Source: an uncultured Flavobacteriaceae bacterium (GTDB taxonomy: Bacteria > Bacteroidota > Bacteroidia > Flavobacteriales > Flavobacteriaceae). From it: 50,318 nt of DNA. The stretch lies in NCBI GenBank assembly GCA_913051755.1, contig CAJXBR010000004.1:1-50318 (forward strand), in the 5' to 3' direction. Both the position numbers and the translations under genes were made by a program. Positions 1,663 to 28,610 of this stretch are shown piece by piece. Within the stretch, counting starts at the first letter, position 1; each line of letters begins with the position of its first letter. Under the pieces are notes generated by a model, which saw only the letters and a program-made list of their open reading frames with translations, had not been told where the DNA came from and searched no databases.

Positions 1663-1684
1663 TTGCAGTCAAAATGCAGCATCT
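1663..1684 (+). promoter_or_regulatory. Candidate operator, phased TGCAG repeat upstream of GH92
   Basis: The box reads TTGCAGTCAAAATGCAG followed by CATCT. It contains two TGCAG units 11 bases apart. The same box, TTGCAGTCAAATTGCAG followed by TATCT, lies upstream of susC in the same orientation relative to its gene (16426 down to 16405). In the 22-base box only two positions differ. Here the box ends 30 bases before a TAnnTTTG match at 1715. At susC the matching gap is 29 bases. This is direct sequence evidence for a shared regulatory site. The protein that binds it is unknown. Confidence 0.6.
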
Positions 1685-1714
1685 TTTGATTCGATCTATT
1701 TTGTTTACAGAATT

Positions 1715-1722
1715 TATTTTTG
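1715..1722 (+). promoter_or_regulatory. Candidate -7 element for GH92
   Basis: TATTTTTG matches the Bacteroidota -7 consensus TAnnTTTG exactly. It ends only four bases before the ATG at 1727, so transcription from it would start at or very near the start codon and give a leaderless or nearly leaderless message. No well-placed -33 TTTG is present. The upstream phased repeat may compensate for this. Confidence 0.35.
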
Positions 1723-1726
1723 TGCT

Positions 1727-4651
1727 ATGAAACAAACAACCCTAGTAACACTCATCATTTTGAGTTTTTTTTCTGCATGTACAAATAATAGTACTCCTGA
1801 AAACACAGATTTAGTTTCATATGTAAATCCATTTGTTGGTACAGGTGGTCATGGCCATACCTACCCAGGCGCTACAATGCCTTTTGGAATGATGCAACTT
1901 AGCCCTGACACAAGACTTGATGGCTGGGATGGCTGTTCTGGGTATCACTACACAGATCAACATATTTATGGGTTCTCTCACACACATCTTTCTGGAACAG
2001 GGATTTTAGATTATGGAGATGTCTTGCTGATGCCAACCAATGATGTGGTTTTTAACAATGGTGCTGATGGAAAGATAGGATATCGATCTTCATTTTCTCA
2101 TGACAATGAGGTGGCATCGCCAGGGTATTATGCAGTACATCTAGATGATACAAAAATTGATGTCTCCCTAACCGTTTCAGAGCGCAGTGGAATTCATCAA
2201 TATACATTCCCCCAAGATTCTGAACAGGTTGTAATCCTCGATTTAGTTCATCGAGATTTGGTGATCGACTCAGGTCTCGATTTGATCGATGAGGTGAATG
2301 TGAGGGGTTATCGATTTTCAAATGCTTGGGCGAGAGATCAACGTATATTTTTTGATATGGTTTTCTCGAGACCCTACAAGGATGTAGTTTTTGAAAATGA
2401 TTTGTTGACTGGGAAATCAGTGAGGGCTGCCTTTATATTTGACCCAACAGAATCGAATGAAGTTGAAATTCGTGTTGGGATTTCTGCTGTTGACCAAAGC
2501 GGAGCTTTGCAAAACAGAGAACATGAGTTGGACGATAAATCCTTTGAAGATGTTCTTCAAATTGCTGAAAATACCTGGGAACAGCAGTTAAATAAAATTG
2601 TAGTGGAGACTTATGATGAAGAAGATAAATACAATTTTTACACTTCCTTATATCATACAATGCTCGCACCAAATCTCTTTCAAGATGTTGATGGGCGATA
2701 TAGGGGTATGGATATGAAAATTCATCAAGACGAGGAGACCAATTATTACTCTGTTTTTTCGCTTTGGGATACCTTTAGAGCCACGCACCCACTCTACACA
2801 CTAATTGATCAAGACAGAACAAATCATTTCATCCGAACGTTCATCAAAAAATATGAAGAAGGTGGAATCATGCCCATTTGGGATTTGGCTGGTAACTATA
2901 CAAATACGATGATTGGGTATCATGCTGTTCCTGTGATTGCAGATGCCTATCAGAAAGGGATTAGAGACTATGATGTTGAAAAGGCATTTGAAGCAATGAA
3001 ACACTCTGCCACTCGCAATCATAATGGTTTGGAGAGCTATAAAAAATATGGATTTATACCTGTTGAAACCGAATCAGAGTCTGTTTCAAAAACACTTGAA
3101 TATGCTTATGATGATTGGACCATTGCCATCATGGCCAAATCCTTGGACAAAAAAGAGGACTACAAAAATTATTTACAACGAGCGCAGTACTATAAAAACC
3201 TTCATGATCCCTCAACCAATTTTATGAGAGGTCGTTTTCATAACAAATGGTTTGAGCCTTTTGATCCTTACGAGGTAAATTTTAATTACACCGAAGCCAA
3301 CTCCTGGCAATATAGTTTTTATGCCCCGCAAGACATTTCAGGACATATGTCTCTTATGGGCGGAAAAGCATCTTATGAAAAATTACTCGATGATCTTTTT
3401 TCAGCAAGCACAGAAACATCTGGCCGAAAACAATCCGACATCACTGGTTTGATTGGACAATATGCACATGGAAATGAACCAAGCCATCATATGGCATACT
3501 TGTATAATTTCGTTAACAAGCCGCATAAAACACAAGAGAAGGTTCGTCAAATTATGACAGAGCTTTACTCCAATGAGCCTGATGGGATTTCGGGCAATGA
3601 AGATTGTGGTCAAATGAGTGCATGGTATGTGTTTAGTGCACTAGGGTTTTACCCTGTAACGCCAGGCTCAAATGAATATATTATTGGGTCTCCAATTGTC
3701 AAATCGGCAACCATAAATTTAGAAAACGGAAATACTTTACGAATCAATGCTCCCGAAAATAATCGCCGTTCATATTATGTAAATGATGTCACACTCAATG
3801 GGATAAAATTAGAAAATTCATATATCAATCACAACGATATTGTCAATGGTGGAACTCTGGATTTTAGTATGAGCAGACGAAAAGCAGAATGGGGCTCTAC
3901 TGATGCTTCTGTGCCTTCAACTGAAATCAATGAGTTTTTGATCACATCACCTCCATATATTTCAAAAGGTGATTTAGCATTTGATTTGTCTACTACTGTC
4001 GAACTTGAAAGCATACAAGATGAAGCCGATATTTATTATTCCACAGGTGGTGATTATAAAAAATACACAGAACCTCTCACTATTGATGACAACACCATTA
4101 TAAAAGTTTATGCAGACATCAATGGGCAAAAAAGTGCAGTCTTAGAAACCACCTTTCGCAAAAAAAATCCTGACGTAAAAGTCACTCTACTTACAGACTA
4201 TCATTTTCAGTACACTGCAGGCGGGAATGATGCCTTAGCAGATGGGATCATTGGTAAAGAAGATTTTCGTACTGGGGCGTGGCAAGGATATCATGATGTA
4301 GATGTAAATGCTATCGTCAATTTATCTGCACCCAAAACAATTCATGACATTACGATTAATTTTTTAAGTGATCAAAGTGCTTGGATTTTCTTTCCAGACA
4401 GCGCCGAGTGCTACGTTTCTGCTGATGGAGAAAACTACACATTTGTAGGATCCAAGGATTTTAATAATAAGGAATTAGACTCTCCAAAAATCAATACAAT
4501 ATCTTTTACCCCTGCTGATGAACAATATCAATATGTGAAGTTAATCGCTAAAAAAGCTGGCCCTGTTCCTGAATGGCATATGGGTCATCAATTTGACGGA
4601 AAAACTTGGATCTTTGTCGATGAAATTCAAATTAATTATGAACCTAAGTAA
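1727..4651 (+). CDS. GH92 alpha-mannosidase lipoprotein with CHB_HEX_C-like and F5/8-type C domains
   Basis: This 974-residue protein begins with a lipoprotein signal (SPII, Cys18 in LSFFSAC), so it is lipid-anchored outside the inner membrane. Residues about 30-740 form the GH92 module, a calcium-dependent exo-alpha-mannosidase family acting on N-glycan and mannan mannose. Signatures are VNPFVGTGGHGHTYPGA near the N-terminus, Glu523 in EANSWQY (candidate general acid) and GNEDCGQMSAWYVFSALG at about 623-640. The C-terminus carries two extra modules: a chitobiase C-terminal-like domain (about 745-835) and a discoidin/F5/8-type C carbohydrate-binding domain (about 840-970). This makes the protein longer than a typical single-module GH92 of about 740 residues. 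It overlaps the next gene by 14 bases. Linkage specificity (1,2, 1,3, 1,4 or 1,6) cannot be read from sequence. Confidence 0.93.
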   Translation: MKQTTLVTLIILSFFSACTNNSTPENTDLVSYVNPFVGTGGHGHTYPGATMPFGMMQLSPDTRLDGWDGCSGYHYTDQHIYGFSHTHLSGTGILDYGDVLLMPTNDVVFNNGADGKIGYRSSFSHDNEVASPGYYAVHLDDTKIDVSLTVSERSGIHQYTFPQDSEQVVILDLVHRDLVIDSGLDLIDEVNVRGYRFSNAWARDQRIFFDMVFSRPYKDVVFENDLLTGKSVRAAFIFDPTESNEVEIRVGISAVDQSGALQNREHELDDKSFEDVLQIAENTWEQQLNKIVVETYDEEDKYNFYTSLYHTMLAPNLFQDVDGRYRGMDMKIHQDEETNYYSVFSLWDTFRATHPLYTLIDQDRTNHFIRTFIKKYEEGGIMPIWDLAGNYTNTMIGYHAVPVIADAYQKGIRDYDVEKAFEAMKHSATRNHNGLESYKKYGFIPVETESESVSKTLEYAYDDWTIAIMAKSLDKKEDYKNYLQRAQYYKNLHDPSTNFMRGRFHNKWFEPFDPYEVNFNYTEANSWQYSFYAPQDISGHMSLMGGKASYEKLLDDLFSASTETSGRKQSDITGLIGQYAHGNEPSHHMAYLYNFVNKPHKTQEKVRQIMTELYSNEPDGISGNEDCGQMSAWYVFSALGFYPVTPGSNEYIIGSPIVKSATINLENGNTLRINAPENNRRSYYVNDVTLNGIKLENSYINHNDIVNGGTLDFSMSRRKAEWGSTDASVPSTEINEFLITSPPYISKGDLAFDLSTTVELESIQDEADIYYSTGGDYKKYTEPLTIDDNTIIKVYADINGQKSAVLETTFRKKNPDVKVTLLTDYHFQYTAGGNDALADGIIGKEDFRTGAWQGYHDVDVNAIVNLSAPKTIHDITINFLSDQSAWIFFPDSAECYVSADGENYTFVGSKDFNNKELDSPKINTISFTPADEQYQYVKLIAKKAGPVPEWHMGHQFDGKTWIFVDEIQINYEPK

Positions 4652-6662
4652 TCGCATCATTGACAATATTCAAGTTGGATTTGTAGCCTTATTTATTTTC
4701 GTTCTTTCTTCTTGTCAAACATCGACAAATACATTGTCGTTACCAAGCCTATTTTCGGACAATATGGTGTTACAAAGAAATGCAGAGGTGCAGCTTTGGG
4801 GAAAGTCTTTTGCAGGAGCTGATGTAACAATTGCAGTGCCTTGGGGGGAATTCAAGTCAGTAGCCAATAATGATGGCAGCTGGAATATCGTCATGCCAAC
4901 AGCTGATTATGCTCGTCCTTTTTCAATGGAAGTGTGCGACAATACTTCATGTATAAACATTCAAAACGTTGCACTGGGTGAGGTTTGGCTTGCTTCAGGG
5001 CAAAGTAATATGAGTATGCCACTCAAAGGATGGTTGCCTACAGATCCCATAGAAAATTCCTCTGCCGAAATTGCTCAATCCGATCAATATCCATTTCGCT
5101 TTTTTAAAGTCAAACATACCGTTAGTCATGTTCCCAAAACCACAGTACAAGGAAGTTGGAAGGTGAGTAACCCAATCAACGCAGCTGAATTTAGTGCAAC
5201 AGCCTATTTTTTTGCAAAAAATTTATACGATGAACTCAAGGTTCCTATAGGAATTATCAATAGTAGCTGGGGTGGTACCCCTGTTCAGTCATGGGCTGAC
5301 CAAAGCGCTTTGCAAAACGTTCCAGCATATAGAGAAAGCTTAAAGAACATTGAGACAGCAGAGGACAAGAAAAAAAAGTATGAAAAATGGCTACAGCCAC
5401 TAGACTCATTTCCAGAGACAACTGAAAAAACCACTTTTGAAGAGTGGAGCAAATTGGCATTTGATGACCTGCATTTCTCGACTGAAGAGTTTGACGATAC
5501 CCAATGGCTTGACTTATCAATTCCAGGAAACTATGCTGATGTATTCAGTGGCTATACTGCTAGTGATTTTGATGGTATTGTTTGGATAAGAAAATCATTC
5601 ACCATTGATAAGCTTGGTAAGGATTACAAATTTAAACTTGGTTTGGTTGATGATATGGACTTTACTTTTATCAATGGTGAATTCATTGGCGCTACTGTCG
5701 GAGAAGACAGCTTCAAAGAAAAGCAATATGAAATTCCTTCTGGATTACTCAGAGAGGGTGTGAACACCATCGCTATTCGATTAATCGACACCATGGTTGA
5801 TGCCAGGATTTATTCTCCAATTAGTCTTAGCAGTAGTGAGAGTGAATTGTCACTTGAGGGAAATTGGAAAGTGATGCCTACTGCAGAGTTATATAAAAAC
5901 AACTTTTATGTGCTGAGTCCAGCGTATATTACTTCCAACCCTAGGCCAGATTATTTTAAATCTTCAGCTTGGACACCAACAGCACTTTTCAATGGCATGA
6001 TTAGTCCTTTGATTCCGTATTCAATACAAGGGGCAATATGGTACCAGGGTGAGGCAAACGTTGGTTTTGAAGATGAATACAAAATCGTGTTTAGAAACAT
6101 GATCGAAGGATGGCGTTCGAAATGGAACAATGACTTTCCTTTTTATTTTGTGCAAATTGCCCCATATAATTATGGAGATGGACTTTCTCCAGCTCTCCGA
6201 GATGCCCAACGCCATGTTACTTCATTGGCAAACACAGCGATGGTTGTGACCCTCGATATTGGAAACCCTGATAATATTCATCCAGCGAAAAAAAATGAAG
6301 TGGGAAAACGCCTGTCTGATCTAGCATTAGATCAAACCTATGGTGTGAAAAACACCCATCTTGCTTCCAAGCCGTTGAGTGTTGTCGGCAAAAAAAATAT
6401 CGTCAGTATTCTGTTCGATTGTAAAGATGGCGGTAGTTTGCAGCTCAAAAATCCTTCTTCAGATCAAATCGAAATTTCGGAAGATAATATCAATTTCTTT
6501 CAAGCAAACGCAGTGGTCGATGACTGCTATTTACATCTGTATTCATCAAAAGTAAAACGCCCTAAATATGTTCGTCATGCGTGGACAGATACAAGCAGTG
6601 GCGCTATACTGAATTCTAAAGGAATCCCAGTCTCAACGTTTTTAGTTGAAGTTGAGAACTGA
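4638..6662 (+). CDS. Sialate O-acetylesterase-family esterase lipoprotein
   Basis: I chose the ATG at 4638, overlapping the GH92 stop by 14 bases, because it gives a 674-residue protein with a plausible lipoprotein signal (Cys26 in FVLSSC). ATGs at 4593 and 4620 would add up to 15 residues. The SGNH/SASA esterase fold is indicated by ASGQSNM with the nucleophile Ser at about 123, IWYQGEANVGFEDEY, and the catalytic Asp/His block PDNIHPAKKNEVGKR near the C-terminus. A jelly-roll insert resembling a GH2 sugar-binding domain sits at about 270-400. The family removes O-acetyl groups from sialic acid or other sugars. No sialidase is present here, so the substrate may be acetylated mannose or GlcNAc residues. 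It is translationally coupled to GH92. Confidence 0.85.
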   Translation: MNLSNRIIDNIQVGFVALFIFVLSSCQTSTNTLSLPSLFSDNMVLQRNAEVQLWGKSFAGADVTIAVPWGEFKSVANNDGSWNIVMPTADYARPFSMEVCDNTSCINIQNVALGEVWLASGQSNMSMPLKGWLPTDPIENSSAEIAQSDQYPFRFFKVKHTVSHVPKTTVQGSWKVSNPINAAEFSATAYFFAKNLYDELKVPIGIINSSWGGTPVQSWADQSALQNVPAYRESLKNIETAEDKKKKYEKWLQPLDSFPETTEKTTFEEWSKLAFDDLHFSTEEFDDTQWLDLSIPGNYADVFSGYTASDFDGIVWIRKSFTIDKLGKDYKFKLGLVDDMDFTFINGEFIGATVGEDSFKEKQYEIPSGLLREGVNTIAIRLIDTMVDARIYSPISLSSSESELSLEGNWKVMPTAELYKNNFYVLSPAYITSNPRPDYFKSSAWTPTALFNGMISPLIPYSIQGAIWYQGEANVGFEDEYKIVFRNMIEGWRSKWNNDFPFYFVQIAPYNYGDGLSPALRDAQRHVTSLANTAMVVTLDIGNPDNIHPAKKNEVGKRLSDLALDQTYGVKNTHLASKPLSVVGKKNIVSILFDCKDGGSLQLKNPSSDQIEISEDNINFFQANAVVDDCYLHLYSSKVKRPKYVRHAWTDTSSGAILNSKGIPVSTFLVEVEN

Positions 6663-6694
6663 ATTTAACACCAAGGGATGGTTTAGACAGCTTG

Positions 6695-6720
6695 AAGTTT
6701 TTAAGTCAAAAAACTTTTTT
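6695..6720 (+). terminator. Possible AT-rich terminator after the esterase gene
   Basis: AAGTTTTT at 6695-6702 can pair with AAAAACTT at 6709-6716 around a 6-base loop, followed by further T residues. The stem has a single G-C pair and overlaps the last codons of the convergent permease gene, so the call is weak. Confidence 0.35.
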
Positions 6721-8014
6721 TACTCCGCTGATAGCCATACCAAATAATGTAACCATAACAAACGATCAGTAAAAGAAGGGCCATTTTAAACCCAAATAAA
6801 TCTGTCATATATCCATAGAGAGGCGGAATGATGGCGCCTCCAACAATCATCGTACACAGTATTCCTGACGCTTGTGGTTTCAAGTCATCCAAACCCTCTA
6901 AAGATAAACTGAAAATGGTAGGGAACATTATAGAGTTAAAAAGACCAACTGCAAGGATAGAAATCATGGAAACAATGCCTAGGGTTTGAGATGAGATAAC
7001 AATCATGAGTACCGCACCGGTCGCAAAATAAGAAAGAACAACAGAAGGCCGAATAACTTTGGTGAGATAAGAGCCAACAAAACGACCAATCATAGCACCA
7101 CTCCAATAGAAAGTAACGAAAGCACCCAAGATGCCATAATCACTCACTGCTGAGAGGTCTTGCCCCAATAAAGTCGAGGCAATCGCTGCCATAACTTCAT
7201 TATGCTTGACTATAGCAGTAAGACCCATATCATAAAAATAATTGACAAGATAACTGCCAATTGCCACCTCAGCACCCACATAAATAAAGATTCCAAGCGC
7301 GCCAAGAAGCAGCGATTTATTTCGCAATAGCGAGCTGTATCCGCCTTTTGGTGCAGACGATAGCATTGTTGGTAATTTAACAAAGACAAACACCAATGCA
7401 AGAAGAATGATAAAAGATGTAATGATCATAAAAGGAGTCTGCACTGCTGTGGCTTCGCTGATCAGATAGGCTTCACGTGCAGTACTCGTCATCTCTGATA
7501 TCTCATCGCTCGAGCGAACTTTATCACTCAGAATAAACGATGCTCCTAATATGGGGGCAATTGATGTACCTAGTGAATTAAATGCTTGTGAAAGATTGAG
7601 ACGACTCGCAGCTCCTGACTCAGAACCCAAAACTGCAACATAAGGGTTTGCAGCAACTTGCAGTACTGTAATCCCTCCAGCAAGCACAAAATATGCCAAT
7701 AAAAACACATTAAATTCACGAAAGGAAGCAGCAGGGTAAAACAAAAAACAACCAATCGCCATAGTGATAAGTCCTGCGACTATCCCCCTTTTGTATCCAA
7801 TTTTTGAAAGCAAAAACCCTGCTGGAATCGATAGGATGAAGTATGCCCCAAAAAAAGCAAATTGTACCAAGCCAGCCTGAAAGTAAGTCAGTGTAAACAA
7901 ATCTCGAATTCGTGGGATCAAGCTGTCGACAAGGACTGTGATAAATCCCCATAAAAAAAACAAGGATGTTAAGAAAATAAAAGCCGTTCTGTAATTGTGT
8001 TTTGTTTGATTCAT
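6701..8014 (-). CDS. Sugar MFS transporter, FucP family (second copy)
   Basis: The 437-residue inner-membrane protein has twelve hydrophobic segments and FucP-type signatures: LFFLWGFITVLVDSLIPR in helix 1, LLSKIGYKRG after helix 2 and LQVAANPYVAVLG in helix 4. It belongs to the same family as the 206-1504 permease but is clearly diverged, and it has a longer central loop. It is convergent with the esterase gene, and divergent from cutC across a 222-base gap. It probably takes up a monosaccharide freed by the glycosidases. Having two permeases fits a locus that releases both mannose and GlcNAc, although which carries which is inference. Confidence 0.88.
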   Translation of the reverse strand: MNQTKHNYRTAFIFLTSLFFLWGFITVLVDSLIPRIRDLFTLTYFQAGLVQFAFFGAYFILSIPAGFLLSKIGYKRGIVAGLITMAIGCFLFYPAASFREFNVFLLAYFVLAGGITVLQVAANPYVAVLGSESGAASRLNLSQAFNSLGTSIAPILGASFILSDKVRSSDEISEMTSTAREAYLISEATAVQTPFMIITSFIILLALVFVFVKLPTMLSSAPKGGYSSLLRNKSLLLGALGIFIYVGAEVAIGSYLVNYFYDMGLTAIVKHNEVMAAIASTLLGQDLSAVSDYGILGAFVTFYWSGAMIGRFVGSYLTKVIRPSVVLSYFATGAVLMIVISSQTLGIVSMISILAVGLFNSIMFPTIFSLSLEGLDDLKPQASGILCTMIVGGAIIPPLYGYMTDLFGFKMALLLLIVCYGYIIWYGYQRSKKSFLT

Positions 8015-8236
8015 AAGATTGTGTTTGTGGTTAAATCTCTGCTAAAATTTTAGTCTTTTTGAAATATTAATTGCTGATTAATTAAGTCAAAATTGTTTTT
8101 TTAACTGTATTTTTAGGTATATTTAAATCATGTGATTTTTTATAAAAAAGACATTTCTTCATTCATAAATCCTTTCTAAATATAGACAAATTTTAATGAT
8201 TTTTCGATAGTTGATGTTATCCTTAAAAATGGGAAA

Positions 8237-8956
8237 ATGGTAGTAGAAATTTGCGCGAATTCTTTCCGATCAGCATGCAATGCAGAAAAGGCAGGTGCTG
8301 ATCGAATTGAGCTTTGTGCTGAGTTAGCAACTGGTGGGCTTACGCCATCCTATGGGTTAGTAAAGCAAGTGATTTCAAAACTATCGATACCAGTGTATGT
8401 CTTAATACGCCCACGCAGTGGAGATTTTTGTTACTCAGACGAGGATTTTGATATTATGAAACAGGACATTAGTCTTTGTAAAAAGTTGCATTGCCAAGGG
8501 ATTGTTTCAGGAGTTTTACACGCCGACATGACCATTGACCTTAAACGAACCAAAGAGTTGGTAGAATTTACACGTCCTTTGTCGTTCACGTTTCACAGGG
8601 CGTTTGATTCAGTGCCAAACCCACTGAAAGCAGTAACTGAGTTAGAAAAGATTGGTGTCGAAAGACTACTAACGTCAGGTCAACAATCGACTGCAGTTGA
8701 AGGCCTGCCCATACTTCAAAAATTACAAGAGAATTTTAGTGGAAAAATCATCCCTGCCGCTGGGATTAACATTAAAAATATATCGAAATTTAAAACGTCT
8801 ATTTTTAAAGAAATTCATTTCTCTGCCAGCATTCGAGAAAAAAGAAACACAACAGATTTTCTGCCATTGAATTCTGAAAAACACTTTGACGAAACATACC
8901 AAACTTATGCTGATCAAAACATAATTGAACAAATGATATCATTACTCCATGCATAA
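8237..8956 (+). CDS. cutC: CutC family protein
   Basis: The 239-residue TIM-barrel protein matches the CutC family over its full length, starting MVVEICANSFRSACNAEKAG and containing RIELCAELATGGLTPSYG and the VLIRPRSGDFCYS segment. CutC was first linked to copper tolerance, but its biochemical activity is poorly defined. It lacks a signal peptide and should be cytoplasmic. Its stop codon overlaps the start of the GH2 beta-mannosidase by 8 bases, so the two are translationally coupled inside a glycan locus. This suggests a role in sugar metabolism rather than metal handling, which is inference from context. The ATG at 8237 gives the usual family N-terminus. Confidence 0.88.
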   Translation: MVVEICANSFRSACNAEKAGADRIELCAELATGGLTPSYGLVKQVISKLSIPVYVLIRPRSGDFCYSDEDFDIMKQDISLCKKLHCQGIVSGVLHADMTIDLKRTKELVEFTRPLSFTFHRAFDSVPNPLKAVTELEKIGVERLLTSGQQSTAVEGLPILQKLQENFSGKIIPAAGINIKNISKFKTSIFKEIHFSASIREKRNTTDFLPLNSEKHFDETYQTYADQNIIEQMISLLHA

Positions 8957-11435
8957 ATTACATCTCACACTCATTGGCGTTGTCGCCATTCTTGTTAGCT
9001 GCAAATCAAATAAACAACTTCCAACATTAGTCACGCTCGACTCTAACTGGTCTTTTCGTTCTGCCAACGCTTACGAGTGGCGCTCAGCAACTGTGCCAGG
9101 AAACATATATTCTGATCTGATAGATCATCAACTCATTGAAGATCCCTTTATTGGAGCAAATGAGACAACAGTGCAGTGGGTTGCTGATTCAACATGGGTC
9201 TATCAAACCAATTTTGATGTGCCAACAAGTACACTCAATAAAGAAAATATCCAACTTGAATTTGAGGGTCTTGACACCTATGCGAAGGTCTATTTGAATG
9301 ACAGTTTATTGATTTCAACCAATAATGCATTCAGGACTTTTAAGGTTCCTGTCAAGGACTTCCTAATGTCTCAAAACACACTGTCGATTCATTTTGCTCC
9401 AACACAAGTTAAAGAGGAAATTGAGAAAAATAAACTCGATTACACACTACCAGAGGGCAATCGTGTGTTTACGCGCAAGGCGCAGTTTCAATATGGTTGG
9501 GATTGGGGTCCGAAGCTAAATACCATGGGGATTTGGAAAGATATCACCTTGCAGGCGTGGGATGATTCTTCTATTGAAAATATCTTTTTACAAAAGGATT
9601 CCTATACGAATGAAAAAGCACAATTCACTGCTGTTGTAACACTGACAAGCCCGCCAAATCAGGCAAGTACAATTGAGGTGTTGGCCGATGGAAAAGAATT
9701 TTCTTTGGCAATACCTACATCAAGTACAATGGATAAATTCGAGGTTCCCGTCACTATTGAAAACCCCACATTCTGGTGGCCCCACAACCTTGGCGATCCA
9801 CACCTCTATCAGGTTGAGGTTCGATTGATCAAAAACAAAACGATAGTGGATGAGATCGTGTTACAGCATGGCATACGCAATGTTTCACTCATTGCTGAAG
9901 AGGATGAACATGGTCAGTCCTTTTATTTCAATATAAATGGGGAGGCTGTGTATATGAAAGGGGCAAATTATATTCCGCAACACAGTTTGCAGAATCGAGT
10001 CACAGATACTCATTATGAAAACTTACTCCAAGATGCTGTTGATGCCAATATGAATATGCTTCGTGTATGGGGTGGTGGTATTTATGAAAATGATATTTTC
10101 TATGAGATATGCGATGAACAAGGAATCCTTTTGTGGCAGGACTTTATGTATGCCTGTGCCATGTATCCAGGTGATGAAGAATTTTTGGAGAACGCCAAGC
10201 AAGAAGCAGAAGACCAACTCATACGTTTGCGAAATCACCCGAGTATTGTCTTGTGGTGTGGAAATAATGAAAACAATGAAGGTTGGCATAATTGGGGTTG
10301 GCAAGATGGCAAGACGCAAGCGCAGAAGGACAAAATATGGGGCGACTACTTAAAACTATTTGACAGTATTTTACCAGCAGAAGTAGCAAAACACACCCAA
10401 ATTGATTATTGGGAGAGTTCTCCGAAATATGGACGTGGGAATCCTAAGTATCAATTTGAGGGTGACGCTCATGATTGGTGGGTTTGGCATGATGCCTATC
10501 CATTTGAACATTTTGAAGACTATGTTCCACGCTTTATGAGTGAGTTTGGGTTTCAGTCTTTTCCGAGTCAAGAGGCGATGAAATTCATTAATCAATCAGA
10601 TGATATACAGATCGACACTGAGGGTATGAAATCACACCAAAAACATCATCGTGGGTATGCGCTGATTGATCTGTATATGGACAGGGATCATGTGGTAGCA
10701 GAAAATGATGAGGACTATGCCTACGTGAGTCAAGTGGTGCAGGCGCGTGGAATACGATTGGGAATTGAGGCCCACAGAAGAGCAAAGCCCTATAATATGG
10801 GTACTCTTTACTGGCAACTCAACGACTGTTGGCCCGGGATTTCATGGTCGAGTATCGATCATTTTGGCAATTGGAAAGCATTACATTATGAGGCAAAGAA
10901 GGCGTTTGAAAATATCCTTATTTCATTTAAGAGAGATGGAGATCAGGTTGATGTCTATATTGTCAATGACTTATTGAAAAATCTTGATGAAACGTTGGCA
11001 TTACAGCTGTATGACTTCAAGGGAAATGTATTATGGAGTTCCTCAAAAGAAGTAAAAGTTGGTTTGAATACCAGCGTCCTAGCTCAATCTTTTTTAGTTG
11101 AAAAAATGGGAAATCTGAACGGGAATGAGGTTATGTTAGAGGCTAAGTATGGGGAACATACCAACACTTACTTTTTTGAAAAAACAAAGAATTTAGCGTT
11201 GGGTGACGATGAAATTCACTTTGAAATCCAAAAAGTAGATAAAGGGTTTTCAATTGATCTCACTTCACCTGTATTGCAAAAAAATATCATGCTAATGGCT
11301 GATTCCAAAGGGCACTTTTCTGACAACTATTTTGATTTGAAAGCGAACAAAAAGAAAACAATACTGTTTCAAACTGCATCCACATCACCAGTAAGGATCA
11401 CTTATAAAAGTTTAAATCAACTCATAAAAGACTGA
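8949..11435 (+). CDS. GH2 beta-mannosidase lipoprotein
   Basis: The 828-residue protein has a lipoprotein signal (Cys18 in AILVSC), then a GH2 sugar-binding jelly roll, an immunoglobulin-like domain and a TIM barrel. The acid/base is Glu441 in WCGNNENNEGW and the nucleophile is Glu532 in FMSEFGFQSFPS. The CGNNE form and the QFQYGWDWGPKL segment are typical of beta-mannosidases rather than beta-galactosidases. The spacing of 91 residues between the two catalytic Glu is normal. It would hydrolyse the Man-beta-1,4-GlcNAc bond of an N-glycan core, or beta-manno-oligosaccharides. It is coupled to cutC and is followed by a strong terminator. Confidence 0.92.
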   Translation: MHKLHLTLIGVVAILVSCKSNKQLPTLVTLDSNWSFRSANAYEWRSATVPGNIYSDLIDHQLIEDPFIGANETTVQWVADSTWVYQTNFDVPTSTLNKENIQLEFEGLDTYAKVYLNDSLLISTNNAFRTFKVPVKDFLMSQNTLSIHFAPTQVKEEIEKNKLDYTLPEGNRVFTRKAQFQYGWDWGPKLNTMGIWKDITLQAWDDSSIENIFLQKDSYTNEKAQFTAVVTLTSPPNQASTIEVLADGKEFSLAIPTSSTMDKFEVPVTIENPTFWWPHNLGDPHLYQVEVRLIKNKTIVDEIVLQHGIRNVSLIAEEDEHGQSFYFNINGEAVYMKGANYIPQHSLQNRVTDTHYENLLQDAVDANMNMLRVWGGGIYENDIFYEICDEQGILLWQDFMYACAMYPGDEEFLENAKQEAEDQLIRLRNHPSIVLWCGNNENNEGWHNWGWQDGKTQAQKDKIWGDYLKLFDSILPAEVAKHTQIDYWESSPKYGRGNPKYQFEGDAHDWWVWHDAYPFEHFEDYVPRFMSEFGFQSFPSQEAMKFINQSDDIQIDTEGMKSHQKHHRGYALIDLYMDRDHVVAENDEDYAYVSQVVQARGIRLGIEAHRRAKPYNMGTLYWQLNDCWPGISWSSIDHFGNWKALHYEAKKAFENILISFKRDGDQVDVYIVNDLLKNLDETLALQLYDFKGNVLWSSSKEVKVGLNTSVLAQSFLVEKMGNLNGNEVMLEAKYGEHTNTYFFEKTKNLALGDDEIHFEIQKVDKGFSIDLTSPVLQKNIMLMADSKGHFSDNYFDLKANKKKTILFQTASTSPVRITYKSLNQLIKD

Positions 11436-11456
11436 GATTTGTTAAATAGTTGAGAA

Positions 11457-11488
11457 CAAAAAAAAGCCTGCAATTTGCAGGCTTTTTT
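11457..11488. terminator. Bidirectional rho-independent terminator
   Basis: GCCTGCA and TGCAGGC form a 7-bp GC-rich stem with a 3-base loop at 11466-11482. The stem is preceded by a run of A and followed by a run of T. It lies between the convergent GH2 and susD-like genes and can serve both strands. Confidence 0.92.
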
Positions 11489-11520
11489 CAAACTAACTAA
11501 ATATAAAAAACCTAATTAAA

Positions 11521-13230
11521 TTATTTTGCAAACCATAATTTTGTAGCCATATTATCAGGCCCTTGAATGGAAACAGCAGCACTTACATTATCACCATTTG
11601 TATTATACGTGTCAGATCCATATCTTAATCTCTGTGCCTGTCTACCATTCAAGTCCCCAGCAAAAGAGATAATGTCGTTATCATCGGATGTTATGACTGC
11701 TGCTGTAGGATAACCAGTATCTCTGACAATAGCCCAACTTTCGTATCCATTAGTGTAATTAACTAACCAACGTTGTGTTGCTATTTTCTCTAGTTTTTCT
11801 TCCATTGTACCAGATAAAGAACCCATGTCAGAAGATAAAAATTCTGCTGAAGGGGCTGTATCCCAAACAGCCATAGCTTTTTCTAAGCCTAATTGATAGT
11901 AAGTATTTGCATCTCCACTAGCAAGTCCCTTTACAATTGCTTCTGCTATCATAAAATGTGAATCAGCTGATGCCATTACAACTTCCGGGAATTGATCCTT
12001 TCCTTCATCGTTTCTAACTTGAGTTATGATATCTGCTGGCTCAGAAAACATTGTTCCTGGCATGTACCCTTTAAGCTTTGGGCTTATTCTTGAAGGCATG
12101 CCTACATAATTGGTGTTTTCTGGCATAGTGATAGTCAAATCAGTAGCTGTTTCTGTCCACGTATAATCTTGATCTTGGATAAGACCAGCAGCATCAAGTG
12201 AGCCTTTAACGAAATCAACATGAACATCGATCAAAGCAACACCTTCACCAGTCGTTGGCTTTGTTATTGTCATTGTTCCGCCTGTAGCAGGTTTAGTCAT
12301 CAAAGATAACCTTGGATCATCATAATCTTTCATTGCATTATTCAAAGCCTGAGAAACTCTCCAATCGCTACCTCCACCTCCAAATGTATAAACATCTCCA
12401 TAGCATGCAGCGGAAGAAGCACCCCATATATTTGTTTCAGCAGGAAAGCTTGCAAACATACCATCAACATTAGCCAACACACCGGATGCAATTGCTTCCG
12501 AAGCAGCAGTTGCAGAAAAATCTTCTCCTGCAGCTCCATGAGCTCTTAGTGCTAATCGTAACTTTAAACTGTTTGCCATTTGTTTCCAGTTTTGCATATT
12601 ACCACTAAATATTACATCATTTTCTGCAAGCTTCCCAAAACCACTACCAGCTTCTGTTTTATCGCCAATAATTTCTATTGCTTCATCAAGTTCAGCAATT
12701 ATTCCTTTGTATATGGTTAATTGGTCATCGAACTTAGGTAAAGCTATATCTGGATCAGATGCTTCTGAGTATGGGATCATTCCATAGGCATCTGTAAATT
12801 GTTGATAATAAATCCCTTTCATTATAAGCCCCAGAGCATAATACATTTCATCCTCTAAAGGGCCACCTTCATTAACATTATTCAAATATGAAGTTAAGAC
12901 AGTATTGTAACCCGATAGGTGGTTCCAACAACCAGCGTCTGACCAAAAGCTATTATATAACCATCCTAAATCGCCATCCCAACTAGATCCGGCCCATCCA
13001 TTTGATGATTGACCAGAAAATTGATCAACGTGTATTACATTTCCTAGCCAGCGAGGAAACATGTTACCTTTTAAAAGCCTTTGCTGAATTTCAGTAACAA
13101 AAAACTTCGCACTGATATCTTCAGTAGATAGTGCATCAGGTTGTGTGTTTATTTCATCGAAATCATCTGTACATGACAGAGCTGTTGCGATTAATAAACT
13201 AGTGCAGATTAATAATATTCTATTTTTCAT
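11521..13230 (-). CDS. SusD/RagB-family glycan-binding outer-membrane lipoprotein
   Basis: The 569-residue protein begins with a lipoprotein signal (Cys20 in IATALSC) followed by TDDFDEINTQPDAL, the usual start of the SusD-like_2 branch. The mature protein would be a helical, TPR-rich, surface-exposed lipoprotein that caps the SusC channel and helps capture oligosaccharides. It lies 17 bases downstream of the susC-like gene on the same strand, the standard susCD order. Its Trp-rich N-terminal segment (NGWAGSSWDGDLGWLYNSFW) could contribute aromatic sugar-binding surfaces, which is inference. The ligand cannot be assigned from sequence, but the surrounding enzymes suggest a mannose/GlcNAc glycan. 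Confidence 0.93.
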   Translation of the reverse strand: MKNRILLICTSLLIATALSCTDDFDEINTQPDALSTEDISAKFFVTEIQQRLLKGNMFPRWLGNVIHVDQFSGQSSNGWAGSSWDGDLGWLYNSFWSDAGCWNHLSGYNTVLTSYLNNVNEGGPLEDEMYYALGLIMKGIYYQQFTDAYGMIPYSEASDPDIALPKFDDQLTIYKGIIAELDEAIEIIGDKTEAGSGFGKLAENDVIFSGNMQNWKQMANSLKLRLALRAHGAAGEDFSATAASEAIASGVLANVDGMFASFPAETNIWGASSAACYGDVYTFGGGGSDWRVSQALNNAMKDYDDPRLSLMTKPATGGTMTITKPTTGEGVALIDVHVDFVKGSLDAAGLIQDQDYTWTETATDLTITMPENTNYVGMPSRISPKLKGYMPGTMFSEPADIITQVRNDEGKDQFPEVVMASADSHFMIAEAIVKGLASGDANTYYQLGLEKAMAVWDTAPSAEFLSSDMGSLSGTMEEKLEKIATQRWLVNYTNGYESWAIVRDTGYPTAAVITSDDNDIISFAGDLNGRQAQRLRYGSDTYNTNGDNVSAAVSIQGPDNMATKLWFAK

Positions 13231-13247
13231 TTTGTTATGTATTTATA

Positions 13248-16200
13248 TTAAAAATTCAATGTTAGATTTAGACCTAAACTTCTTAATGTTGGCATCGCAT
13301 TGTGAGACATACCTTGTGTACCAAATGATGTTCCCAGCACCATTTCAGGGTCTATATCATCAGCACTCTTAGATAAGAAAAATAAGTTTCTTCCTACCAA
13401 TTGAATGTTTGCGCTTTGAAGTCCAAATTTTTCAACACCAGAAATATTGTACCCTATTGAAAGTTCTCTTAATCTAATGTTGTCTTGATCAAAAATATAG
13501 TTCCCAGAAACGTTACCCATCGCTGTCCAGTATTCTTCTCCAGAAATGCGTTCTGTATTAGCAACTCCAGTTCCCGTATTAGTTCCGTTTACTAAAATTC
13601 CATCACGGTATTGAAGACTTCTTTTAGATACACCTTGTCTATCTAAATCAGCAGAGGTTTGTGAATAAATTTGACCGCCTACACGAGCATCTATTAAAAA
13701 ACTCATGGAGAAATCATTAAACCTTATTGTATTAGACCATCCAGCTAAGAAATCGGGTTCTGTATTTCCTAGTAGTTCTGTAGGAGCAGCAGATGCGGTG
13801 GGTATTCCACTGGCGTCAGTTTCACCAGTTAGAACTTTACCATAAATATCCCCAATACTTCCTCCTTCAGTAGCTTTTACAGCAATATTATTATCAGAAG
13901 AAGTGTTGTAAGTAAAGTTGTCCAATCCATCTGTTAAATCCTCAACTTTATTTTCATTTTTTGAATAAAAAAGAGAAGTATTCCAAACAAGATTATTTGA
14001 ATCCATCAAAGTTGCACCAAGTGCAATCTCCAAACCCTTATTGGACACTAAACCGATATTTGTTCTATTAAAAGTAAATCCTGTAGATGCTGCTACTGGG
14101 ACATCAAAAATTAAATCTTCTGTTTCGATATTGTAGAAGGTTACGTCTAAATTAAGTTTATTTCTAAGCATACTTAATTCTAATCCAAACTCGGAAGACG
14201 TTACTGTCTCAGGTTTTAAATCTGGATTAAATTTAATAGGTGAATTACTTAAAACTGTTAACCCAAGGTAACCTTGTCCAGGAACATTGTATGTTTGATT
14301 AAGCTGATATGGATCTGTATCGTTACCTACTTCTGCTAGACTAGCACGAACTTTAAATAAATTGAAAAAATTCTGTTCTGGATCAATAAACCTGTTAAGT
14401 ATAGCAGATAAACTCAAAGAACTGTATGCATAAGATCTATTATTTTCACTTAAAGTAGATGACCAGTCATTGCGAAGCGAACCATCAAGATATATGAAAT
14501 TATCATATGCTAAATTAACAGAACCATAAGCCGAATTTACTTTTTTAACGGCCAGTGGTGCTTCAACTGGTGAATTAACAGTCTTCAAGTTTGAAACAAA
14601 AAATTTCGTCGGAATTTTAAACTCGGAACCAAAAATCATCATGCCTTCGGAGCTTCTTTTAGATAAATTACCACCTAAATTAGCTATAACATTTAATTTT
14701 TCTGTAAATTGATGATTAGCAGTGAATAAAACTTCCGAGTTTAATTCCCCAAATTGACTTTCCTGAATCATCATTTGTCCATTATCTGAGTAGTGATGTC
14801 CAGGTTTTTTGACTTCTATGTCTCTAATGTTAGTTACATCAGCACCAACACGAATAAAAGCACTTAACCAATCCGTAAACTTATAATTTATTTTAGTGTA
14901 ACCTAAAAATCTATTTCTTCTTACAGAACTTTCATCATGTAGAGCCATCCAAAAAGGATTCCCAATTATGCCGTCTCCATAAGTAATAACTTTAAATTCT
15001 GAAGGAGTTCCAGGATTCTCCATTTGATAATTACGCATGTCATCAATAGCTACGTTTCTTGGCATTCTGTATAAATAACCAATGAGGCCTTGAGCTCCAA
15101 CTGAAGATGCTCTACCAGCTACTTCTTGAGTAAAATAGGTGGCCTTAGCGTCAAAGGTCAATCTATCAGAAAGATTTGTTATTGATCTTAAATTAAAGTT
15201 ATGACTTTCTAAATCAGACCCCTCAACAATTGACTCAGATGAGTTATTTGTATATGAAAATCGTGTTGATCCACTTTCTGATCCTTTATCGATTGATAGG
15301 GATGTTATTGATCTTACTCCAGTTCTAAAGAAATTCTCAACATTATTAGGCTTAGCACTATATGCTTTGTTAGATCCATCATAATATGGTTGTGAAGAAC
15401 CATCTAATCTACCACCCCAAGATAACTCAGACCAGCTTCCACTTGAACGAGCTAAATTTGGAGCGCCTAAGGATCCTTGCCCATACTGGTTTTGAAAATC
15501 TGGTAAAAACATAGGATTGTCAACATATAGGTTTGTTTTTAAAGTAACACCTAATCTATCAGACCTTGAACCTTTTTTAGTAGTAATAAGTATGACTCCA
15601 TTACCTGCTCTTGATCCGTAAAGTGCTGATGCTGCAGGTCCTTTGAGTACAGATATAGTTTCAACGTCATCAGGATTTATATCTGAAATACCCCCGCCAG
15701 CAATACTTGGTTCAAAACTTACCTGACCACCCCCATTATTGGAACCAGCTTCTCTTTGGCCACCATCATTACTAAGTGGTAGTGATGCATTAATTGGCAT
15801 ACCATCAACAACAATAAGCGCCTGAGAATTACCAGCTAAAGAATTGTTCCCTCTTATTGTAACTCTTGATCCAGAACCAAGAGATCCTGCAGCAGATACT
15901 TGAAGCCCTGCAACCTTACCTGTAAGAGAACTCGCAAGGTTATTATCCTTAATTGTATTTACATTATCGCCAGCAACTTCTGTGACTGCATATCCCAATG
16001 ATTTTTTCTCTCTTGAAATACCAAGGGCTGTGATTACAACCTCGTCAAGCAATTGATCTTCTTGTAGAACAAAATTAATTTGCAAAGAAGAATCTACAGC
16101 TGTCTCTTGTGTTGCATATCCGACAAAAGAGGCAACTAATATATCGCCAGCAGATACTTCAATACTAAAGTTACCATCAAAATCAGTCGTTGTACCAGTG

Positions 16201-16349
16201 TTTGTACTCTTAACTACAATCGTGGCACCAGGAAGTGGTCCATCAGCTGTTGTTACAGTTCCAGTAACTGTTTGCTGCGCGATCAAACTAACTGATGATA
16301 TCGCAAACAATGCTACTGCTAAAAAATTAAATAATATTTTCATAATCAT
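13248..16349 (-). CDS. SusC/RagA-family TonB-dependent outer-membrane transporter
   Basis: I place the start at the ATG complementary to 16347-16349 (MIMKILFNFLAV), with an alternative two codons later at 16343. Upstream codons would add an unlikely hydrophobic leader and cross the putative promoter. The protein has about 1033 residues: a signal peptide ending near SLIAQQ, a carboxypeptidase-D-like domain (TVTGTVTTADGPLPGATI), a TonB box region (LDEVVITALG), a plug domain (GKVAGLQVSAAGS, VTIRGNNSLAGNSQALIVVDGMP) and a beta barrel ending LRSLGLNLTLNF. It imports oligosaccharides across the outer membrane using TonB energy, together with the SusD-like partner. Its promoter region carries the same phased TGCAG box as the GH92 gene. 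Confidence 0.95.
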   Translation of the reverse strand: MIMKILFNFLAVALFAISSVSLIAQQTVTGTVTTADGPLPGATIVVKSTNTGTTTDFDGNFSIEVSAGDILVASFVGYATQETAVDSSLQINFVLQEDQLLDEVVITALGISREKKSLGYAVTEVAGDNVNTIKDNNLASSLTGKVAGLQVSAAGSLGSGSRVTIRGNNSLAGNSQALIVVDGMPINASLPLSNDGGQREAGSNNGGGQVSFEPSIAGGGISDINPDDVETISVLKGPAASALYGSRAGNGVILITTKKGSRSDRLGVTLKTNLYVDNPMFLPDFQNQYGQGSLGAPNLARSSGSWSELSWGGRLDGSSQPYYDGSNKAYSAKPNNVENFFRTGVRSITSLSIDKGSESGSTRFSYTNNSSESIVEGSDLESHNFNLRSITNLSDRLTFDAKATYFTQEVAGRASSVGAQGLIGYLYRMPRNVAIDDMRNYQMENPGTPSEFKVITYGDGIIGNPFWMALHDESSVRRNRFLGYTKINYKFTDWLSAFIRVGADVTNIRDIEVKKPGHHYSDNGQMMIQESQFGELNSEVLFTANHQFTEKLNVIANLGGNLSKRSSEGMMIFGSEFKIPTKFFVSNLKTVNSPVEAPLAVKKVNSAYGSVNLAYDNFIYLDGSLRNDWSSTLSENNRSYAYSSLSLSAILNRFIDPEQNFFNLFKVRASLAEVGNDTDPYQLNQTYNVPGQGYLGLTVLSNSPIKFNPDLKPETVTSSEFGLELSMLRNKLNLDVTFYNIETEDLIFDVPVAASTGFTFNRTNIGLVSNKGLEIALGATLMDSNNLVWNTSLFYSKNENKVEDLTDGLDNFTYNTSSDNNIAVKATEGGSIGDIYGKVLTGETDASGIPTASAAPTELLGNTEPDFLAGWSNTIRFNDFSMSFLIDARVGGQIYSQTSADLDRQGVSKRSLQYRDGILVNGTNTGTGVANTERISGEEYWTAMGNVSGNYIFDQDNIRLRELSIGYNISGVEKFGLQSANIQLVGRNLFFLSKSADDIDPEMVLGTSFGTQGMSHNAMPTLRSLGLNLTLNF

Positions 16350-16367
16350 TTCATTTTGGTTATGGAT

Positions 16368-16375
16368 CAAAAGTA
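16368..16375 (-). promoter_or_regulatory. Candidate -7 element for susC
   Basis: Read on the minus strand this is TACTTTTG, an exact TAnnTTTG match. It lies 18 bases before the preferred start codon and 29 bases after the phased repeat box. No good -33 TTTG is at the expected spacing. Confidence 0.4.
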
Positions 16376-16404
16376 GATATACCACAAACGACATGCTAAA
16401 AAAC

Positions 16405-16426
16405 AGATACTGCAATTTGACTGCAA
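16405..16426 (-). promoter_or_regulatory. Candidate operator, phased TGCAG repeat upstream of susC
   Basis: On the minus strand the box reads TTGCAGTCAAATTGCAG followed by TATCT. It has two TTGCAG units 11 bases apart, about one helical turn, so both fall on the same face of the DNA. It matches the GH92 upstream box at 20 of 22 positions and has nearly the same distance to a TAnnTTTG element. Confidence 0.6.
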
Positions 16427-16461: not shown

Positions 16462-18183
16462 TTAAATACTGAAAATAAATGCGTTTAGATCTTGGTTTTT
16501 TATCAAATTTAATTTTTTTGCCAATCGATAGCGCTGACTTTGAACTGTGCGCAATGAAATCCCAGAAATTTGAGCAATTTCATTGTTGCTCTTATTCATT
16601 TTTATGTATGCGATCAAACGTAAATCAACTTTTGACAATTTATAATTTTCATTGAGTTTTTTATAAAAATCTGGAAACACCTCAACAAACTTTTTGTCAA
16701 ACTCACTGTAGGCACTTTCTGAATTAATCAAAGATGAAATTTCTCTTTTCATGCGATTCACACGAGAGGCTGGAAGTTCCTCATCACCACCTAAGCTTTT
16801 TCTAAAGTTTTGAAGGTACTCGTTGCGTTGGATGATAAAATTAGTTTTGCTAAACAATTCTCTTTTCTTTGCATTGAGCTCCTCCTCAAATCGATTTCTC
16901 TCGAGTTCTAATCTTGTGCTTCTTTCGCGCTGTAAATTATTATTGATTCGGAGAATTATAACCAATAATATAAGTATGAGCGCAAATCCAGAAAATAAAA
17001 GCTGTGCTCGATTATACTTCATTTCACTCTCATTAATTTCAGCTTGTTTTTCAGATAACAAAATTATGTTCTCAACATTATCAAGCGACTTGTAAGGGTC
17101 AATTTGTGACTGTTTGCTGTAATATATTATCGAATCTTTAATAGATAAAACCTTATCGAATTTCCCTAAGCTTTGATACGTATTAACCATCGCCTTAAAG
17201 TTTCGAATCCGATTATCTCTGGCAACAAATTGATCAGGAGGACGACTAAATGAGGATTTTAAATTATCCTCTAGTATAGATTCAGCAAGCTCATAGTTAT
17301 TCAGTCCAATGTGACACTCCGCAATCGATACATTCAGTCTAGGTATTTCGTTTGCGAAAGATTCGACAAGTTTTTTTGCTTGCAAAAACAATTCTAAAGA
17401 CTCTGAATAACGTTGCTTATTTTTAAGGTAATCAGCATAGGTTGAAATGGCTCGTGAGAAACTAAGTTGAATTTCTGAATCACTTGAATAAGAGGGGTCA
17501 ACAGATTTTGTGTTAAAAACTTTCTCAGACAATTCTAAATAATTTAATGCATCATCTACCTTATCCTGCAATAAGTATAGATTGATAAACTGGGTATAAG
17601 ATCTGATGATGTCTGAAGGTTTATCAATTAATTGCCTCCGCGATAATATCTTTTTATAGTATTTGAGTGATTCCTCATAATCTCCTAAGTTATAGCTGAT
17701 CATCGCCAAATTTCCTTCAACAGTGTTGAGCCCAAAAAACTTATCTTCTTGATGTTTTATTTCATACAACTCAAAATTTTCGATTGCTTCATAATAATAA
17801 CTACTTGCCCTTTCATATTCTCCATAATTAAAATAAGAGTTTCCAAGGGTAACCAAAATCCAGGGTGGCTTGGAGATATGTTTAAACAATCTCTGATCAA
17901 TAGTTAAAGTTTCGAAAACCCTGAGTGCCTGAAATAAATAATCAAAGGATTCTTTTTCAAAATTAAGGTAGTACAAGGTCTCACCTATCAAATAATTTGT
18001 ATCATAAACATCCCAACTCAATTTATTAAAATCTGAAGTGGAAATTGCTTTATAACCATAATCAAGTGCTTTTTCAGGTTCTTTAATCTGATATTTTCGA
18101 ATGGAGTCGTTCAAGGAAGAAATCGATTGGCTGTGCAGGAGTTGCAAGCCAATGATAAATATTAAAACAAAAAATTTGTTCAT
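16462..18183 (-). CDS. Membrane-anchored TPR regulator with LuxR-type HTH
   Basis: The 573-residue protein has an N-terminal signal peptide (MNKFFVLIFIIGLQLLHSQS) and a long helical region with TPR-like repeats at about 45-330 (for example LAMISYNLGDYEESLKYYKK). A single transmembrane helix follows at about 392-411, then a charged coiled-coil-like stretch, and a C-terminal LuxR-type helix-turn-helix at about 530-560 (SNNEIAQISGISLRTVQSQR). The predicted topology puts the TPR sensor in the periplasm and the DNA-binding domain in the cytoplasm. Such proteins occur beside susCD genes in Flavobacteriia. It lies directly upstream of susC on the same strand and probably controls the locus. Its own upstream region carries a version of the phased repeat, suggesting autoregulation. 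Confidence 0.85.
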   Translation of the reverse strand: MNKFFVLIFIIGLQLLHSQSISSLNDSIRKYQIKEPEKALDYGYKAISTSDFNKLSWDVYDTNYLIGETLYYLNFEKESFDYLFQALRVFETLTIDQRLFKHISKPPWILVTLGNSYFNYGEYERASSYYYEAIENFELYEIKHQEDKFFGLNTVEGNLAMISYNLGDYEESLKYYKKILSRRQLIDKPSDIIRSYTQFINLYLLQDKVDDALNYLELSEKVFNTKSVDPSYSSDSEIQLSFSRAISTYADYLKNKQRYSESLELFLQAKKLVESFANEIPRLNVSIAECHIGLNNYELAESILEDNLKSSFSRPPDQFVARDNRIRNFKAMVNTYQSLGKFDKVLSIKDSIIYYSKQSQIDPYKSLDNVENIILLSEKQAEINESEMKYNRAQLLFSGFALILILLVIILRINNNLQRERSTRLELERNRFEEELNAKKRELFSKTNFIIQRNEYLQNFRKSLGGDEELPASRVNRMKREISSLINSESAYSEFDKKFVEVFPDFYKKLNENYKLSKVDLRLIAYIKMNKSNNEIAQISGISLRTVQSQRYRLAKKLNLIKNQDLNAFIFSI

Positions 18184-18224: not shown

Positions 18225-18245
18225 TAATACTGCAAAAAAATGCAA
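18225..18245 (-). promoter_or_regulatory. Variant phased TGCA repeat upstream of the TPR regulator
   Basis: On the minus strand this reads TTGCATTTTTTTGCAGTAT. Two TTGCA units lie 10 bases apart, and the second half, TTGCAGTAT, is identical to the second half of the susC box. It starts 62 bases before the ATG, comparable to 64 bases at GH92 and 77 at susC. The poly-T spacer makes it less certain than the other two sites. Confidence 0.45.
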
Positions 18246-21085: not shown

Positions 21086-21140
21086 AATAAAATTTGATTG
21101 TCTATCTTGCTTATGTAAACAAATCAAAAAACCCAGATTT

Positions 21141-25202: not shown

Positions 25203-25232
25203 TTTGCAAAATATGTCTATATTTAATTTTTG
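25203..25232 (+). promoter_or_regulatory. Candidate promoter of the 3-keto-glycoside operon
   Basis: TTTG at 25203-25206 is followed after 18 bases by AATTTTTG at 25225-25232, which matches the TAnnTTTG consensus at 7 of 8 positions. Transcription would start near 25238, about 55 bases before the ATG at 25293. This supports that start codon and argues against the upstream TTG at 25230. Confidence 0.5.
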
Positions 25233-28603: not shown

Positions 28604-28610
28604 GAAAAAA

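Follow-up and report, generated by a model that had tools for sequence, protein, structure and literature searches.

What switches on, in one flavobacterial locus, both the import of a glycan and the trimming of its mannose? The locus lies in a 50,318-nucleotide stretch of DNA from an uncultured Flavobacteriaceae bacterium (contig CAJXBR010000004.1 of assembly GCA_913051755.1; the whole stretch is here called the window), in which a 22-base element stands upstream of a glycoside hydrolase family 92 (GH92) alpha-mannosidase gene and, again, upstream of susC. A first interpretation made from the letters alone (the sequence-only reading) held that the two processes are co-regulated by one activator. 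That proposal is now supported by the recurrence of the element at susC, GH92, and a third gene, GH125, by its constant distance to the -7 box, and by the conservation of its core. As judged from sequence comparison, the 22-mer is a real operator, conserved between related species, and the best reading of the data is a small three-promoter alpha-mannoside regulon (susC, GH92, and GH125). We consider it quite probable that the 22-mer serves as the operator of a positive regulator, putatively a protein with tetratricopeptide repeats (TPR) and a LuxR-type DNA-binding domain (TPR-LuxR), and that this regulator controls susCD, GH92, and GH125. The likely binder is the TPR-LuxR protein that is predicted to span the membrane and whose gene adjoins susC. 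The features on which the argument turns are these:

1663..1684, + strand: operator copy 1, upstream of GH92; conserved in related genomes G001, G002, and G008, with a relic in G007
16405..16426, - strand: operator copy 2, upstream of susC; conserved in G001 and G002
1727..4651, + strand: GH92 alpha-mannosidase gene (Pfam PF07971, 607 bits; PF17678, 254 bits)
13248..16343, - strand: susC, encoding a SusC/RagA TonB-linked outer membrane protein (TIGR04056, 600 bits; ATG at 16343; searches used 13248-16340, the first Met being omitted)
16462..18183, - strand: gene for the TPR-LuxR regulator, 573 amino acids (aa), the proposed activator (Pfam, hydropathy, and structure model)

A search of the window recovered both copies where the sequence-only reading had placed them, and they share 20 of 22 bases. 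The string TTGCAGTCAAAWTGCAGYATCT occurred at two places with no mismatches and at no further place when up to 3 mismatches were allowed; none of 100 dinucleotide shuffles of the window contained it twice. Within the intergenic part (2663 bases outside a list of 39 reading frames), the copies were the sole pair of 22-mers with at least 20 of 22 identical bases, and such a pair was absent from all 100 shuffled intergenic sets. The earlier view that the pair is unlikely to be due to chance was thus upheld by both kinds of shuffle. The TGC units are 11 bases apart in both copies, as had been noted for the TGCAG units: the susC copy is a perfect TTGCAGT direct repeat and the GH92 copy a TGCAG direct repeat, each with an 11-bp period. 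The half-site pattern by itself (TGCAG-N6-TGCAG with 2 mismatches) was found at chance level (41 places observed, 43 expected), which indicates that specificity resides in the whole core. With a matrix built from nine sites (both window copies included, the G007 relic excluded), the window copies scored 38.1 and 35.3 bits, values that are high by construction, and the informative result is the gap down to the next best place, at 6.0 bits. No further target in the 50-kb window exceeded 6 bits, and the matrix scan of the window found no operator at the beta-mannosidase, GH20, or NagB genes.

Each copy is followed by a presumed promoter:

1715..1722, + strand: TATTTTTG, -7 box of a presumed promoter for GH92; spacer from operator copy 1, 30 bases
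16368..16375, - strand: TACTTTTG, -7 box of a presumed promoter for susC; spacer from operator copy 2, 29 bases

These spacers of 30 and 29 bases match the distance to an exact TAnnTTTG that had been read from the letters. The octamer is frequent in the window by itself (77 places, ~61 expected), so it is the fixed spacing that is meaningful. Ten promoters were compared (two from the window, three each from G001 and G002, one from G008, and the G007 relic), and the end of the 22-mer lay 29 bases from a TAnnTTT(G/A) box in nine of them and 30 bases away in the window GH92 promoter. Eight boxes were TAnnTTTG and two were TAnnTTTA, which fits the TAnnTTTG criterion for flavobacterial sigma-A promoters. 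The -7 consensus is taken from a study that mapped this box at -12 to -5 in Flavobacterium psychrophilum (PMC9723704); by analogy, the element would span about -63 to -42. Contact with RNA polymerase requires that the -7 box lie at a fixed distance, as it does in three unrelated promoters, whereas a repressor has no such need; from this we infer activation rather than repression.

The third promoter came from related genomes. A search of genome contigs with TPR-LuxR returned two relatives at 84% identity, L001 (AG-913-F17) and L002 (metagenome-assembled genome MOX_bin68), which belong to genomes G001 and G002, both of 1.4 Mb. The genomes designated G are single-cell or metagenome assemblies that may be incomplete, and we treat them as flavobacteria on the ground that they were selected as relatives of G001. 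At up to 3 mismatches, the 22-mer had exactly three sites in each of G001 and G002, while the reversed-pattern control had none. These sites precede GH92, susC (the SusC proteins of G001 and G002 being 96% and 74% identical to that of the window), and GH125, a metal-independent alpha-mannosidase gene that is absent from the window (Pfam, 540.8 bits for the full G002 protein). The GH125 gene of G001 is divided between two contig ends and adjoins a second GH92 gene, on another contig; that of G002 has as neighbors GH20 (75% identical to the window's) and a serine hydrolase (81%). GH125 thus has different neighbors in the two genomes but is accompanied by the same element. GH125 was found in 3 of 40 genomes (G001, G002, and G124) and, among the first-listed 13 relatives, in G001 and G002 only. 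Similarly, TPR-LuxR at 84% identity was present, among 198 relatives, only in G001 and G002, the two genomes with susC and GH125 sites. It adjoins susC in the window and in G001; in G002, this was judged from contig ends. Among 397 genomes of the family and 395 of the order (best three first-look candidates scored per genome), no close TPR-LuxR relative was found beyond that of G001 itself.

Alignment of the upstream regions showed that the core is what has been kept. All 17 core columns were fixed in the five GH92 sequences, compared with 45% of columns outside the 22-mer, and all 17 were fixed in the three susC sequences, compared with 56% outside it. (A GH92 column was counted as conserved when the window, G001, G002, and G008 agreed; G007 was not required but has the same 17 bases.) The longest conserved runs, 24 columns for GH92 and 22 for susC, both cover the core.

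The sequence-only reading would be undermined if the motif were frequent in unrelated promoters or inside genes, and scans of the 198 related genomes did not bear this out. At up to 1 mismatch, the 17-mer was found at 20 places in 14 genomes (backward control, 7): 8 at GH92, susC, or GH125 promoters, 4 in one conserved reading frame, and 8 elsewhere. The 4 are the near match TTGCAGTGAAATTGCAG, considered as a fourth target and set aside: in G001, G003, G006, and G008 alike it lies antisense within one 533-aa reading frame, which looks like coding conservation. The remaining 8 comprise 5 inside reading frames, one of which (G077) is also 32 bases before a 489-aa reading frame, and 3 outside any open reading frame of 60 aa (G097, G165, and G159); as targets they look like background, because the backward control gives 7. 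A composite pattern, TGCAG-N6-TGCAG-N34/35-TANNTTT with free letters between the half-sites, was sharper, with 13 places in 9 genomes and 1 in the backward control. Eight of these were the GH92, susC, and GH125 promoters, 4 lay inside reading frames, and 1 was intergenic. In viral contigs, an alignment search found no relative; eight exact 17-mer matches there fell on stretches without relatives of 13 window proteins.

The intergenic match, in G112, had not been sought: 138 bp downstream of it begins the gene for a TPR-LuxR homologue (34% identity). At this place (L048, 3974-4030), a TGCAG direct repeat with an 11-bp period is accompanied by a -7-like box, and the nearby homologue has no susC beside it. 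The match is hard to explain unless TPR-LuxR family proteins read such repeats, and autoregulation is possible, on sequence grounds, in this family of homologues. For the window's own TPR-LuxR, autoregulation through an 11-bp operator was considered and dropped, no such site having been found upstream of its gene.

The protein itself has the build of a sensor joined to a DNA-binding domain. A hydrophobic N terminus resembling a signal peptide is followed by a TPR superhelix, a transmembrane-like stretch at ~391-413, a long helix, and a C-terminal helix-turn-helix (HTH), in a structure model whose confidence (mean predicted local distance difference test score, 77.6) is low near the transmembrane stretch and the linker. 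The match to PF00196 (GerE HTH; 23.2 bits; E = 5e-5) falls 0.3 bits below the curated cutoff; the close relatives P0023 and P0024 carry PF00196, and the modeled HTH helices lie at 518-528, 533-540, and 544-557. By sequence and model, the protein has the C-terminal GerE HTH that marks LuxR/GerE-type regulators. An alignment of the query with 32 of the 120 homologues listed (33 sequences in all) showed this HTH to be almost unchanged down to 42% overall identity. A fold search with the model returned general TPR folds and a weak match to 1hz4, which we take to be domain III of MalT, and indicated no ligand.

A second regulator is encoded next to TPR-LuxR, and repeats of a similar kind flank its gene:

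18318..19064, - strand: gene for a DeoR-family regulator (PF00455, PF08220), proposed to regulate nagB/deoR and the TPR-LuxR gene
19181..21085, + strand: gene for a NagB-PIG-L fusion, glucosamine-6-phosphate deaminase-like, the amino-sugar part of the locus (PRK02122, 909 bits)
19137..19174, - strand: TGC repeat array with a 10-bp period, between deoR and nagB; proposed DeoR operator (repeat spacing)
18225..18245, - strand: 21-bp block upstream of the TPR-LuxR gene, TGC with a 10-bp period; proposed DeoR site (identical in the window, G001, and G002)

DeoR homologues were found in 17 of the 198 genomes, at 18 loci. Repeat distances were counted at the 14 loci (L074 and L083-L095) that do not belong to the window's clade and in which DeoR has NagB-PIG-L as a neighbor; two clade loci were kept apart, and L096 and L097, which lack this neighbor, were left out, both having a TGC spacing of 10 and not 11. 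In the 260 bases upstream of DeoR at these 14 loci, a TGC distance of 10 was seen 47 times (2.4 expected) and a distance of 11 once (2.3 expected); distances of 12, 22, and 32 were seen 13, 26, and 13 times. Spacing 10 was present at 14/14 loci, the full 10-12-10 array at 12/14, and spacing 11 at 1/14. Within the window's clade, the TPR-LuxR upstream and deoR/nagB regions use a distance of 10 (TGC pairs in the latter: 3 in the window, 1 in G001, and 4 in G002), and in the susC, GH92, and GH125 regions examined the distance is 11, the half-sites enclosing a fixed TCAAA (TCATA in one GH125 copy). The block at 18225-18245 is identical in the three genomes despite diverged flanks. Because the repeats before deoR are spaced by 10 or 12 bp and those of the 22-mer by 11 bp, the 22-mer does not appear to be of the DeoR type; 10-bp repeats before the TPR-LuxR gene mean that this gene seems to be under DeoR control itself. 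The 10-bp TGC arrays are likely to serve DeoR as a general operator at amino-sugar genes, DeoR probably controls the gene of the activator through the 18225-18245 block, and the spacing pattern suggests a DeoR-to-activator cascade.

We propose that TPR-LuxR binds the two TGCAG half-sites, 11 bp apart and on the same face of the helix. The bound pair would sit just upstream of the -33 region, with a gap of 29 bases (30 in one case) to the -7 box, and touch RNA polymerase. A periplasmic TPR domain, if the predicted topology is right, would sense an imported alpha-mannoside fragment, and the cytoplasmic HTH would then turn on susCD, GH92, and, where present, GH125. nagB and deoR would be under the DeoR-type array and the TPR-LuxR gene under the DeoR-type site. 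A more tentative extension, to which we give rather less than even odds, is a two-tier circuit: DeoR would read TTGC half-sites 10 bp apart, and TPR-LuxR near-identical ones 11 bp apart with the fixed TCAAA; an amino-sugar phosphate that comes from the chitobiose core would be the signal for DeoR, which would control the TPR-LuxR gene and, through it, uptake and alpha-mannose trimming.

The sequence-only reading had named either TPR-LuxR or DeoR as the binder, and repeat spacing (11 versus 10) favors the former and disfavors the latter. DeoR was weighed as the binder of the 22-mer, whether as repressor or activator and with TPR-LuxR acting on other targets, once conserved TTGC repeats had been seen near deoR: its gene is part of the same string, tandem TTGC half-sites also occur in its presumed sites, and TTGCAGTAT is common to the susC operator and the block that precedes the TPR-LuxR gene. 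Against this, the 14 other DeoR loci favor distances of 10 or 12, whereas every susC, GH92, and GH125 copy uses 11, and 13 of the 14 genomes with those loci have no composite match, the sole match (G088) being inside a reading frame; we regard this alternative as very unlikely. An unlinked regulator (another LuxR, an AraC, or an extracytoplasmic function [ECF]-type factor) would account for G008, which has a site without a detected TPR-LuxR. It does not account as well for a susC copy that lies 35 bases past the TPR-LuxR stop codon, for susC and GH125 copies occurring in two genomes that have that gene, or for the only other intergenic composite match in the 198 genomes preceding a TPR-LuxR homologue. 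An ECF -35 element, moreover, is not expected 29 bases from a -7 box, and on balance an unlinked regulator seems unlikely. Chance similarity or a recent promoter duplication without function could draw on the AT-rich flanks, the commonness of -7-like octamers, and the persistence of the G007 relic, but neither fits the failure of 100 shuffles to reproduce the pair, a core conserved across species between diverged flanks, or the same element and spacing at a third, differently placed gene; we judge this explanation extremely improbable.

Several observations weigh against operator function and TPR-LuxR binding. Because TGCA reads the same on both strands, the element may instead be a dyad, TGCA-N7-TGCA; the direct-repeat reading depends on the flanking G/T letters. 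In G008, the GH92 site is present and no TPR-LuxR, DeoR, or susC was detected, which may reflect only that the contig ends within the locus. In G007, the GH92 operator and -7 box are kept although the locus and regulator were not found, so persistence alone is no proof of use, and part of the conservation may reflect recent inheritance. Both GH125 boxes have TTTA, not TTTG, as their last four letters. G112 provides one instance of the link, in which the homologue is 34% identical and has a different recognition helix; three other distant TPR-LuxR homologue loci lack the repeat, and covariation of regulator and operator can be viewed only at 34 to 36% identity.

Around the G007 site (L044, 4297-4549), the two major facilitator superfamily (MFS) genes of the locus are adjacent and the next cluster comes after them, and the operator and -7 box form an apparent relic; no relatives of the other eleven locus proteins were found on this 14-kb stretch.

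The proposed activator resembles known regulators in part. MalT of enteric bacteria, a cytoplasmic ATPase, combines a TPR-like sensor part with a LuxR-type HTH and acts at direct repeats upstream of the promoter, an arrangement likewise seen here. Unlike MalT, TPR-LuxR has a transmembrane-like stretch, and its Pfam scan contained no N-terminal ATPase domain. There is also a likeness in layout to SusR of Bacteroides thetaiotaomicron (BT3705 and paralogues), described (PMC3878776) as having a periplasmic part, a cytoplasmic DNA-binding part, a gene often near susC/susD, and direct-repeat sites for activation. By hydropathy, model, and gene order, TPR-LuxR has the same predicted topology (periplasmic part, membrane segment, and cytoplasmic HTH) beside susCD. 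The likeness is one of layout, and the tandem SusR sites are 67 or 77 bp apart (PMC3878776), compared with 11 bp here. The same study describes HTCS_Man, a group of hybrid two-component systems (HTCS), with regulons BT2628, BT3302, and BT3786 in Bacteroides thetaiotaomicron: as here, the regulator lies beside an alpha-mannan locus, with predicted control of SusC/SusD and of periplasmic or extracellular mannosidases via direct repeats (PMC3878776). However, HTCS proteins combine a histidine kinase and a response regulator in one fusion and carry an AraC HTH, and none of the kinase, receiver, and AraC domains was found in the Pfam scan of TPR-LuxR; the HTCS_Man repeats are 16 bp with a 5-bp spacer, a 21-bp period rather than 11 bp (PMC3878776). 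Papers on alpha-mannan use by marine Bacteroidota mention GH92, GH125, and SusC, and the opening parts of their abstracts contain no operator or regulator (PMC9213526, PMC6298971). Among the literature matches listed, no title or abstract opening mentions a site bound by a TPR-LuxR protein next to susCD, and the six papers found to contain the string TTGCAGTCAAA have titles and abstract openings unrelated to bacterial glycan regulation.

The remaining genes of the locus are as follows:

11521..13230, - strand: susD-like lipoprotein gene (PF12771/PF12741)
8949..11435, + strand: gene for a GH2 beta-mannosidase-like enzyme (Pfam); no operator found
21048..23690, + strand: gene for a GH20 beta-hexosaminidase-like enzyme; no operator found

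The locus also encodes a SASA-type acetylesterase, two sugar MFS transporters, CutC, and a serine hydrolase of the beta-lactamase family. The families encoded are consistent with a substrate that is rich in mannose, resembles an N-glycan, and ends in N-acetylglucosamine. A second sugar cluster occupies 25230-34828, with two TIM-barrel isomerase-like proteins, Gfo/Idh/MocA oxidoreductases, a 3-keto-disaccharide hydrolase family protein, a GMC oxidoreductase, a gluconate dehydrogenase subunit 3-like protein, and cytochrome c; it perhaps encodes a 3-keto-glycoside route. In G002, GH125 sits between the serine hydrolase and a homologue of this cluster's 3-keto-disaccharide hydrolase.

Two intermixed repeat codes can thus be told apart within one locus. 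With a defined operator and a testable regulon, the mannosidases that work on the imported glycan could be predicted for uncultured cells, and the operator offers a ready reporter for the ligand. If the two-tier circuit is true, the end product of the glycan would gate the start of its own import.

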